Shown here: one piece after another, positions 41,618 to 50,214 of the stretch | How positions within the stretch are numbered: position 1 is the stretch's first letter | Layout of the letters: every line of letters begins with the position of its first letter | Assembly (NCBI RefSeq): GCF_900636515.1 | Contig: NZ_LR134287.1 | Location: 2,176,946-2,240,945, forward strand | DNA: 64,000 nucleotides | Direction of reading: 5' to 3' | Source of the DNA: Neisseria animalis | Lineage (GTDB): Bacteria; Pseudomonadota; Gammaproteobacteria; Burkholderiales; Neisseriaceae | Translations under genes and position numbers: made by a program | Notes under the pieces: generated by a model | What the model was told of the DNA's origin: nothing | What the model saw: the letters and a program-made list of their open reading frames with translations, nothing else | The model's database searches: none

Positions 41618-41620
41618 GCG
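41600..41620 (-). terminator. Terminator beside the left attachment site
   Basis: On the minus strand CGCCTTGAT pairs with ATCAAGGCG around one base, then TTTTTCTTTTG follows. It abuts the partial tRNA copy and has the right orientation to be the original terminator of the initiator tRNA gene, displaced by insertion of the island. Confidence 0.6.
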
Positions 41621-41635
41621 GGAGCAAGATTCAAA
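41618..41635. other. Candidate distal attachment site of the island
   Basis: GCGGGAGCAAGATTCAAA matches 16 of 18 bases of the tRNA-Met 3' region at 50143-50160 (GCGGGAGCAGGATTCGAA), in the same orientation. This is the expected footprint of integration by a P4-type integrase into a tRNA gene. Confidence 0.7.
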
Positions 41636-41688
41636 ATTGTAGATTAAATTATTGTTTTTAATTTATATTTTTTAGTTTGATTTTTTAA

Positions 41689-41708
41689 ATACCCCCAAAA
41701 ATACCCCC
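41689..41708. repeat. Pair of ATACCCCC octamers at the left end
   Basis: ATACCCCC occurs at 41689-41696 and 41701-41708, spaced by 4 bases. The same octamer with the same spacing recurs at the integrase end. These are candidate arm-type sites for integrase or a directionality factor. Confidence 0.6.
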
Positions 41709-41918
41709 TTTTTGCAAAAGTCAGGCGGTTTTTTTGGTGGATTGTTGTATTTTTAGCCTATCCCGTTTGGTCTCGTTCTATCCCGCATAATCCCCGAATA
41801 TTTTTTATTCCGTGGTGGGATTTTTGCTTGTTTGGCGGGCGGCGGTCAAGTGGCGGGGTATTGAAACGGGCAAGGCGGGGAAAAATGGAAAAAATGTATA
41901 TAAGGGCGAAAAAAACGG

Positions 41919-42157
41919 CGGGTACAGCGGGTACGCGGGTACACTTTGGTTAAATTATTGTTTTTAAATGGTTAAACTGTACCCGTTGATGCGTTTGTCA
42001 TTGGGTACAATGGGGAATGCTGCGGGTACACTTCCATAAGCCATTGTTTTTAAAGGTGTACCCGCGTACCCGTTGGTGTACCCGCTGTTTTAGGGGGTAG
42101 CGGGTACACTTTTTATTATATAAATCATAGTGTTAGTTAAAGTGTACCCGCGTACCC
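41919..42157. repeat. Iteron-like cluster, candidate replication origin
   Basis: GGGTAC or its complement GTACCC occurs 12 times in about 240 bases: 41920, 41929, 41937, 41979, 42003, 42024, 42058, 42066, 42078, 42102, 42144 and 42152. Several are part of a longer GCGGGTACACTT. AT-rich tracts (ATTGTTTTTAAATGG, ATTGTTTTTAAAGG) lie between them. The cluster follows the helicase gene, where phage P4 has its cis replication region. Nothing here codes for protein. Confidence 0.65.
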
Positions 42158-42336
42158 GCTGATTTTGCGTTTTATCGCGCGTATACGCTTTTTTCAATTC
42201 AACAATAAGCCTATTTTTTGCTTGATTGTTTCCTATTTGTTGATAATAATAGCGGTGTTCGCTTGAACGCTCCTTGTGGTTAAAAAAAGGCCGCCTGATT
42301 TGCTATCGGGCGGCCTTTATGCTGCTTGCTTGCGGG

Positions 42337-48699: not shown

Positions 48700-49917
48700 T
48701 CAGACGGCCTGACCCGCCCGCTCAATCTCCGCTATTGCGGTCTGATAGCGTTCTTTCAAAAATGCGGAATACCATTTCATCATTTCGCGCCGCTGTGGCA
48801 GGTATTCGGTGCGGTGGTATGCCGCCCTGACTTTGTTACGCTCAACGTGAGCAAGCTGCCGTTCGATAACGTCAGGGTCGAAGTCGTTTTCATTGAGTAC
48901 ATCTGTTGCTAGGCTTCGGAAACCGTGGGGAGTGGCAATATCCCGATAGCCAAGCCGCGCCATTGCATAGCTTAGGGCGTTTTCGCTCATGGGGCGGGTT
49001 TCGTCATTGCGCCCTGTAAACAAATAGCGGCAATGCCCTGTAAGCGGCTTCAGTTCTGCCAGTATCTCTAAAGCCCAATCGGTCAACGGCACAATATGCG
49101 GGGCTTTCATTTTCATTTTTTCGGCAGGTATGCGCCATTCACGCGCTTCAAAGTCAAAATCAGCCCATTCGGCGCGGCGCAATTCTCCCGCTCTGACAAA
49201 CGTCAACATGATAAACAGCATGGCAAGACGGGTTACAGGGCGTATGCCGCCGTCTGAAAGCAGGCGGCGGTAAAACTCTGTGATTTCCCCCTGTGGTAAG
49301 GCGGGCATATGCTTCACGGGCGGGGTTTTGATTTGTCCGACAAGCGGCAAGGCGGGGTTATTGGTCGTCCGCTCCGTCAAAACGGCATAATTGAAAACGG
49401 CCTTTGTTTTTTGCAGCACAATACGGGCGGTTTCAAAATTGCCCGCGCCTGTAATGCTTTCAATCATGGCTTTTATTTGCCCTACCCTGATTTCCGTTAT
49501 CGGCTCTTTGCCGATGGCAGGCAAAATCAGCCGCTCGAATAACGCCCATATCCGCGCCGCATTGGTGGGCTGCCAGCTTGCCCGCTGGTGTTGATACCAT
49601 TCAGCGGCAAGGTGGGAAAAGGTATTCTGTAACGCCGCTTGCCGCTCACGCTTGGCGGTTTGTTTGGCGGCGGCGGGGTCGATGCCTGCTGCCAGATTGC
49701 GGCGGGCGTTTTCTGCTGCTTCGCGGGCTTCTACCAACGACACGGCGGGGTATTTGCCGATTGATAGCAGCTTCTCTTTGCCGTCTATGCGGTATTTCAG
49801 CCGCCATAACTTGCCGCCAGCAGGGGTAACGGCTAAATGCAGGCCGCCGCCGTCTGCCAGCTTATAGGGCTTGTCGGCTGGCTTGGCGTTCTTTATTTGT
49901 CGGTCGTTTAATGGCAT
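48700..49917 (-). CDS. P4-type tyrosine integrase
   Basis: The protein is 405 residues from the chosen ATG at 49917, which begins MPLNDRQIKNAKPADKPYKLADGGGLHL, the DUF4102 arm-binding domain. A core-binding domain is followed by the catalytic domain with FVRAGELRRAEW (Arg), HGFRSLATDVLNE (His-x-x-Arg) and AAYHRTEYLPQRREMM (nucleophile Tyr). It lies beside the tRNA gene it probably uses as target. No strong ribosome site precedes the ATG; ATACCCCC repeats overlap its leader, so integrase may repress itself. Confidence 0.93.
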   Translation of the reverse strand: MPLNDRQIKNAKPADKPYKLADGGGLHLAVTPAGGKLWRLKYRIDGKEKLLSIGKYPAVSLVEAREAAENARRNLAAGIDPAAAKQTAKRERQAALQNTFSHLAAEWYQHQRASWQPTNAARIWALFERLILPAIGKEPITEIRVGQIKAMIESITGAGNFETARIVLQKTKAVFNYAVLTERTTNNPALPLVGQIKTPPVKHMPALPQGEITEFYRRLLSDGGIRPVTRLAMLFIMLTFVRAGELRRAEWADFDFEAREWRIPAEKMKMKAPHIVPLTDWALEILAELKPLTGHCRYLFTGRNDETRPMSENALSYAMARLGYRDIATPHGFRSLATDVLNENDFDPDVIERQLAHVERNKVRAAYHRTEYLPQRREMMKWYSAFLKERYQTAIAEIERAGQAV

Positions 49918-49919
49918 TT

Positions 49920-49968
49920 GGGGGTATTTTTTCGGGGGTATTTGGTCGATACCCCCGATAATACCCCC
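49920..49968. repeat. Four ATACCCCC octamers at the integrase end
   Basis: GGGGGTAT occurs at 49920 and 49934, and ATACCCCC at 49949 and 49961, forming an inverted array just upstream of the integrase. Together with the pair at 41689-41708 this makes six copies confined to the two ends of the island. Confidence 0.65.
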
Positions 49969-50099
49969 TAAAAATGGTTGCTTCAATACAACGGCATTAG
50001 ACGGCGTTAGACGATACGGGCGGGAAATGAAAAAGGGGAAATGGTCGGAAAGCCTTACTGGCTGGGCGTTTGGTTTATGGCGTTAGACGGTATCAGACG

Positions 50100-50134
50100 A
50101 AAAAAAGGCCGCTATTTTTAGCGGCCTTTTCGTT
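50100..50134 (-). terminator. Terminator after the initiator tRNA
   Basis: AAAAGGCCGCTA and TAGCGGCCTTTT pair around a TTTT loop just beyond the tRNA 3' end. It lies on the island side of the attachment core, so the island seems to supply a new terminator. Confidence 0.85.
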
Positions 50135-50137
50135 GTG

Positions 50138-50214
50138 TGGTTGCGGGAGCAGGATTCGAACCTACGACCTTCGGGTTATGAGCCCGACGAGCTACCATGC
50201 TGCTCCATCCCGCG
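50138..50214 (-). tRNA. Initiator tRNA-Met (CAU)
   Basis: The 77-base gene reads CGCGGGATGGAGCAGC at the 5' end and ends GCTCCCGCAACCA with CCA encoded. The anticodon CAU is at 50178-50180. The C-A mismatch at the first acceptor position and the GGG/CCC pairs of the anticodon stem (TCGGGCTCATAACCCGA) are initiator features. It is intact although its 3' part matches the far end of the island. Confidence 0.95.

Follow-up and report, generated by a model that had tools for sequence, protein, structure and literature searches.

In the available part of the 2018 paper that describes them (PMC6092414), phage-inducible chromosomal islands (PICIs) of the EcCICFT073 type share an integrase gene, an alpA activator gene and pri-rep followed by an iteron origin, all transcribed in a single direction; Gram-negative PICIs are typically around 12-15 kb long, helpers raise alpA expression, and the inducer supplied by the helper was left unidentified. 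For PmCI172, a Gram-negative PICI of Pasteurella multocida, the available text reports a Mu-family myovirus helper and small heads seen by microscopy (PMC6092414, PMC6893505), and P4 is described as being trans-activated by Ogr of P2 and as encoding an Ogr homologue, delta (PMC7552001, available part). An 8.5-kb island of Neisseria animalis was compared here with these systems. It lies at 41618-50157 of the window, the 64,000-nucleotide stretch of contig NZ_LR134287.1 that was analysed (contig positions 2,176,946 to 2,240,945), and is seated in the initiator-tRNA gene between two attachment (att) core copies. With a probability of about 0.78, we consider it a PICI-like satellite of Mu-like (transposable) phages of Neisseriaceae that is switched on by the late activator of its helper. 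Judged from its sequence, the island has the anatomy of a satellite and an alpA promoter region tuned to Mu-like phages; excision, packaging and Mor binding are what we infer.

Comparison with described satellites

The ten protein genes all lie on the minus strand, in the order int, alpA, gam, mor, protease-like gene, cc211, o91, o72, primase and helicase, with a C4 antisense RNA and small open reading frames (ORFs) between cc211 and the primase gene, and iterons and an att repeat beyond the DUF927 helicase gene (Table 1). PICIs of Gram-negative bacteria are further characterised by att sites that prophages never use, by iterons in two sets on either side of an AT-rich stretch, and by induction by a helper followed by packaging in particles, on which the shared dyad bears only indirectly. 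Traits of Gram-negative PICIs present in the island include an integrase with an alpA-type regulator, a single direction of transcription, and replication genes followed by iterons in AT-rich DNA; its 8.5 kb between att copies fall below the size given in the available text (PMC6092414), and own capsid genes, a trait of capsid-forming PICIs, were not found with Pfam or PHROGs. Unlike EcCICFT073-type PICIs as there described, it has a Mu-like late dyad before alpA and a C4 RNA. PmCI172 has a Mu-like helper, as is proposed for the island, and the small heads of PmCI172 are the kind of effect proposed below for the island's protease-like protein; the available description of PmCI172 differs in reporting a capsid-protein homologue and in leaving Gam, Mor and protease unmentioned. 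The island is also set apart by its 8.5 kb and by its place in Neisseriaceae.

Likeness to P4, as far as the available accounts go (PMC8628076, PMC7552001), is in the proposed mode of action, in which a late activator from the helper is the switch, the satellite encodes its own homologue of it, and one satellite product acts on capsid assembly. Searches of the ten proteins against Pfam, PHROGs and NCBIfam returned none of psu, delta/Ogr, sid and epsilon; the activator belongs to the Mor family, and the candidate for acting on capsids comes from a protease-scaffold gene. As to an alpha-type primase-helicase, the island's primase has Zn_Ribbon_Prim and Toprim domains, and its DUF927 protein is separate. 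P4 membership was rejected on the missing key genes, which corrects the original prediction, a reading of the sequence alone that saw P4-type integration and replication in the island. Although expected to work as P4 does, the island does not belong among P4-like elements and stands nearer to Gram-negative PICIs in gene content. With Mu-like prophages of Neisseriaceae it has Mor, the I protease domain and the late dyad in common; it differs from them in having no transposase, capsid, tail or lysis genes and in using a tyrosine integrase at a tRNA gene instead of transposition. The resident prophage of N. animalis has a transposase and structural genes that are unmatched in the island.

The same core order (int-alpA-gam-mor-protease-cc211-o91-primase-helicase), which the original prediction had proposed looking for in Neisseriaceae, was found in 5 of 83 genomes of the family, from two genera. 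Besides the window, members are L023 (genome G041, Neisseria weaveri by protein name), L024, L025 (G039) and L092 (G054, Paralysiella testudinis). They adjoin tRNA-Met in two cases, tRNA-Leu(gag) in two and tRNA-Leu(tag) in one. For nine genes compared between the window and L023, dN/dS ranged from 0.15 to 0.31; in four of them dS exceeded 1. The predicted neisserial phage satellite with Mu-related genes is well supported by this fivefold order and by att repeats beside tRNA genes, and further by dN/dS well under 1, by an uninterrupted tRNA locus in a relative (see below) and by a dyad held in common with Mu-like prophages. The integrase next to the tRNA gene, the AlpA-like gene and the ATGA overlap of primase and helicase genes had likewise been read correctly; of the overlaps claimed for gam, mor and the protease gene, that of mor and protease (ATGA) stood and another was added at alpA/gam (also ATGA), while gam and mor are one base apart. 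Three elements came in addition to that prediction: the C4 antisense RNA, nine iterons and the dyad. No described neisserial satellite was found in the part of the PMC literature that was searched, among titles and abstract openings.

The dyad shared with Mu-like prophages

The dyad TTTTAAA-N4-TTTAAAA came to notice through blastn of the island against the prophage, where a short stretch in the int-alpA interval matched repeatedly, and is proposed as an operator with Mor as its probable reader. Whole-genome scans covered N. animalis (2.24 Mb) and six further genomes. Five perfect copies were found in N. animalis, four in the Mu-like prophage (genome positions 1900066, 1910865, 1916530 and 1929327) and the fifth in the island; the prophage also has a one-mismatch copy, and most other one-mismatch copies are, among the matches listed, one sequence coinciding with a dispersed repeat that we take for Correia elements. 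The complete genome of P. testudinis holds eight perfect copies, seven in two Mu-like prophages (site 227734 being assigned to a prophage because its neighbour gene starts like that beside 1982212) and one at L092:7409, 86 bp before the satellite alpA; satellite and prophage sequences are identical there over about 32 bp around the dyad. L024 has a one-mismatch dyad 68 bp before alpA. Among the other scanned genomes, perfect copies number two on the prophage contig and one elsewhere in G009, two within about 12 kb of the I protease gene in G003, and one each, elsewhere, in G011 and G039.

In Mu-like prophages, such dyads precede capsid, tail, baseplate and lysis genes. Each of the 11 prophage stretches examined has one a short way ahead of the I-protease start (0-1 mismatch in nine, 3 mismatches in two); L155 and L156 among them are from the same genome and nearly identical there. 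The genes after the other prophage dyads searched, apart from L028:1328 and L260:4735, encode a tail protein, a baseplate wedge, and a tail lysozyme or endolysin. A dyad within 0-1 mismatch was found near alpA in three of the five islands with the Mor module versus none of 27 alpA-bearing islands without it (Fisher 0.002), the P values for the dyad being descriptive only because it was found by looking and not predicted; L212 and L214, which have gam and no mor, carry two-mismatch dyads near alpA. PF08765 has two matches in the N. animalis genome, the prophage copy just upstream of a dyad and the island copy. As a sequence common to satellite and prophages, the dyad is a concrete candidate for the helper signal that induces Gram-negative PICIs, the question left open in the available part of the 2018 paper (PMC6092414).

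A second palindrome-like element (by eye GCAAC-N3-GTTGC or of a GTTTCAC type) was seen upstream of alpA at window 48626-48642 and in the int-alpA regions of L023, L024, L025 and L092, and is possibly a repressor or AlpA site. Separately, several prophage late genes (upstream of position 2940 in L027 and at similar places in other prophages) have a terminator-like hairpin and T run directly before the start codon.

Proposed working and alternatives

In the integrated state, the C4 RNA would keep the replication genes silent. Once a Mu-like helper turns lytic, its late activator, probably Mor, would bind the dyad and turn on alpA, gam, mor, the protease-like gene and cc211; AlpA would then lead to Int-mediated excision, and the primase and helicase would copy the excised circle from the iterons. 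The satellite Mor would prolong this activation and, in the manner of P4 delta alongside P2 Ogr, may also work on late genes of the helper; Gam would protect DNA ends. Capsid, tail and terminase would come from the helper, whose prohead assembly would be diverted by the protease-like protein, possibly with cc211, into small capsids or interference.

The protease-like protein keeps the Mu I family protease domain and the C-terminal helical repeat, with the scaffold region mostly absent, and its structural model is similar to T4 gp21 and herpesvirus assemblins. It is the exception to a lack of structural genes that had been predicted and that was otherwise upheld, being itself of a head-assembly family: no significant capsid, portal, terminase, tail, lysis or transposase match was obtained for the ten proteins (Pfam, PHROGs, NCBIfam). 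We advance tentatively, at somewhat less than even odds, that these parts make up a new set of hijacking functions, in which a helper late operator stands before the satellite's own alpA, its own Mor amplifies the signal, and a scaffold-deleted version of the helper's protease-scaffold protein edits head assembly so as to mature or size proheads for the satellite genome. If the scaffold-deleted reading is true, the satellite would pirate capsids by means of a truncated protease-scaffold, in contrast to the Sid, CpmAB or capsid-homologue strategies, and a prohead protease without scaffold would be a new route to redirect capsids.

For cc211, found in the same five of 83 family genomes and always with the gam-mor-protease module, a Phage_scaffold match was weak and under the Pfam cut-off, and PADLOC returned one model, weakly (LmuB, 2.8e-4). 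Its identification as a known scaffold or terminase was rejected, as sequence and fold searches gave no usable match and, among the matches listed, weak coiled-coil matches only (Foldseek, VIA). It had no match in phage records and 33 matching clusters in a large protein set; neither cc211 nor the protease alignment, when scanned against viral contigs, yielded a confirmed relative.

Mor and the protease-like protein of the island are 30-31% identical to those of the resident prophage and AlpA 75% (amino acids); with alpA alone being close, the idea that mor and protease were captured recently from that prophage was rejected. In trees, a supported branch splits satellite from prophage copies (99/97 for Mor, 95/96 for the protease domain), with L092 flagged for long branches. 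Seven short metagenomic forms group with the satellites in the protease tree, where L092 is separate from the other four members. The AlpA gene of the resident prophage (L027:53-478) has 82% nucleotide identity with island alpA over 141 bp and an extra C-terminus. Ten other prophage stretches gave no AlpA match, so satellite and prophage may have exchanged alpA; for gam, no match was obtained in the prophage stretches. Of 46 genomes of the genus, 16 had a match to the protease query, in most cases a prophage protein of full length; of 399 genomes drawn from the order, 16 had one (E 1e-10), and every match outside the family was an open frame of 347-404 aa, as expected of the complete phage protein. 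In the N. animalis prophage, the frames of transposase, MuB, portal, terminase, capsid, protease and sheath are open. Among single-contig genomes, a Mu-like capsid gene is present in 10 of 32 (in pieces in one), including all three carriers (P 0.024).

Several observations weigh against a satellite of Mu-like phages, beginning with the descriptive standing of the dyad statistics. Near alpA, L023 has no dyad with fewer than three mismatches and L025 a two-mismatch match only, about 245 bp upstream; of the three perfect dyads in G041, the host of L023, two lie in the prophage and the third away from both prophage and satellite. The satellite Mor is only about 30% identical to that of the resident prophage. 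Over all genomes, the Mu-like capsid gene was found in 19 of 83 and in three of five satellite carriers, which is not significant (P 0.076); carriers G011 and G039, both drafts, gave no capsid match, and the prophages of P. testudinis are partly broken, with muA in pieces in one and the I protease in the other. No packaging site was found in the island. In L025, int and helicase are in pieces. The presumed catalytic Ser is replaced by Leu in two of 26 aligned protease rows (the short forms P0036 and P0040), which may for that reason be inactive proteases serving as decoys.

Some of these points would suit a satellite with a non-Mu helper, for which gam, mor and protease would be old acquisitions serving its own regulation and the dyad the site of a more general regulator. 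We regard this as unlikely. Besides the two carriers without a capsid match and the supported branch that parts satellite Mor and protease from prophage copies, it could draw on the Terminase_2 and Sf6-type small terminases of backbone relatives, because of which other backbone islands probably use other helpers; against it stand the two complete genomes in which all perfect dyads lie in Mu-like prophages or before a satellite alpA, and the satellite-prophage identity that extends past the dyad in P. testudinis. Less likely again is a defence island that reads the Mu-like late signal mainly to block the phage, whose assembly mistimed Mor, Gam and a decoy protease would poison, transfer being secondary or lost. 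A scaffold-less protease could be dominant negative, the Ser is missing in the two rows above, and PICIs are known from the available text to interfere with their helpers (PMC6092414); yet integrase, alpA, iterons and replication genes are kept, dN/dS is low, members adjoin different tRNA genes in two genera, and the LmuB match of cc211 is weak.

That the island is what remains of a decayed prophage, or belongs to the early genes of a phage of the integrase type, has very little probability in our estimate despite the phage-like genes and the broken frames of L025. In the sequences searched, the block was not found inside a complete prophage, and early-region status was rejected on the absence of Mu-like capsid, MuA or MuB matches in the stretches holding the five members; sizeable ORFs between tRNA gene and att repeat match island genes, frames are whole in four of five members, so that the uniform decay considered in the original prediction did not appear, and cc211 had no match in the phage records and no confirmed relative in the viral contigs named above.

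Boundaries, replication region and sister islands

By inspection, the tRNA-Met at the integrase end has a C1-A72 mismatch and a GGG/CCC anticodon stem, which we take to mark it as the initiator. Searched against its own genome, the 77-base tRNA gave one full-length match (the island's) and one partial match of 30 bases. The 15-nt att repeat, with one mismatch, scored 12, which none of 200 shuffles of 41336-42336 reached. Repeats of the tRNA 3' part (11-17 nt, 11 nt being weak alone) lie beyond the helicase in L023, L024, L025, L029 and L031, in a search that left out L092. The ATACCCCC repeats near int, with a further pair by the opposite end, are presumably arm-type integrase sites. Ligase, tRNA-Met and dnaJ genes follow one another without interruption in G009, the relative with the closest ligase (81% identity), and the left tRNA flank aligns poorly there. 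The ligase gene, near tRNA-Met in the window, was near tRNA-Leu(gag) in four of 30 loci (L113-L142) and near tRNA-Met in one; the surroundings of these tRNA sites differ between species. In the left flank of the island, a dispersed repeat with many genome copies at about 41130-41260, presumably a Correia element, swamped a flank search made with window 40950-41617.

Table 1. Features of the island and its integration site (window positions)
Feature	Position	Strand	Basis and remarks
Initiator tRNA-Met (cat)	50138-50214	-	ARAGORN; integration site; 3' part contains one att copy
att core copy in tRNA 3' part	50143-50157		GCGGGAGCAGGATTC
ATACCCCC repeats near int	49920-49968		further pair at 41689-41708 by opposite end
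int, tyrosine integrase	48700-49914	-	PF13356, PF22022, PF00589; NF007246 match below its cut-off; first ATG at 49914, ORF opens at 49986
Dyad TTTTAAA-N4-TTTAAAA	48562-48579		66 bp before alpA, between int and alpA; putative operator
alpA, excision/activation regulator	48280-48495	-	PF05930 1.2e-6
gam, Mu-Gam-like DNA end protection protein	47813-48283	-	PF07352 7e-24
mor, Mor-family activator	47497-47811	-	PF08765 3e-17, phrog_532; ATG start inferred, ORF opens 47871
Prohead protease-like protein	46793-47500	-	phrog_976 6e-26; alignments; fold
cc211, conserved coiled-coil protein	46141-46776	-	in five family genomes
c4-a1b1-like C4 RNA target	46059-46111	-	RF03163 28.6 bits, below cut-off 46.7; E 4.5e-5
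C4 antisense RNA, immunity-type regulator	45879-45962	-	RF01695 52.3 bits, cut-off 45; upstream of replication genes
o91, small conserved protein	45550-45825	-	no family match in Pfam, PHROGs, NCBIfam
o72, small ORF, N-terminal hydrophobic stretch	45170-45388	-	weak match in one relative (L024)
Primase	44094-45221	-	DUF7146, Toprim_3, Zn_Ribbon_Prim
DUF927 protein, primase-helicase type	42337-44097	-	PF06048 6e-57, phrog_1139
Nine iterons (GCGGGTAC/GTACCCGC)	41918-42159		AT-rich DNA beyond helicase; putative replication origin
Distal att core copy	41618-41632		GCGGGAGCAAGATTC; one mismatch to tRNA copy

C4 matches also lie between cc211 and o91 in the other four members, at 52.5 bits in L092 and below the cut-off in L025 (42.7), L024 (42.4) and L023 (41.0). 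The most frequent 8-mer after the helicase differs per member, being GCGGGTAC (nine copies) in the window, CATACCCG (11) in L023, GCGGTTAC (nine) in L024, GTAACGAC (13) in L025 and GTATCCAC (11) in L092. In 200 shuffles per member, the highest count averaged 2.7 to 3.7 and its maximum stayed below that observed except in L024, for which at least one shuffle also reached nine.

The island-type DUF927 helicase was found in 35 of 83 genomes (E 1e-50). From 53 listed helicase rows, 32 stretches outside the five members were taken as sister islands, at least three of which (L220, L221 and L237) repeat records of L030, L031 and L033; 23 have int-alpA-primase-helicase, three have gam in addition, three lack a detected alpA and three are partial, and none of the 32 matched mor, protease or cc211. 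Ten variable proteins, picked by eye among 149 listed ORFs, comprised six Terminase_2, one Sf6-type small terminase, one DUF1804, one KilA-N and one without match, and small-terminase or DUF1804 genes occur in eight islands (L216, L221, L222, L225, L228, L240, L210 and L209). The backbone therefore carries exchangeable cassettes, the gam-mor-protease-cc211 set being one. The sister islands suggest a wide PICI-like family in Neisseriaceae, and the backbone shared by small-terminase and Mu-type islands suggests satellites that swap helper-control cassettes across the family. A tblastn search of one sister island's DUF1804 protein against prophage stretches of its own genome returned nothing. C4 RNA was at or above cut-off in seven of 24 scanned sister-island loci, and the int-alpA RNA (RF02996) reached its cut-off in some backbone islands (L031, L215, L224 and L238).

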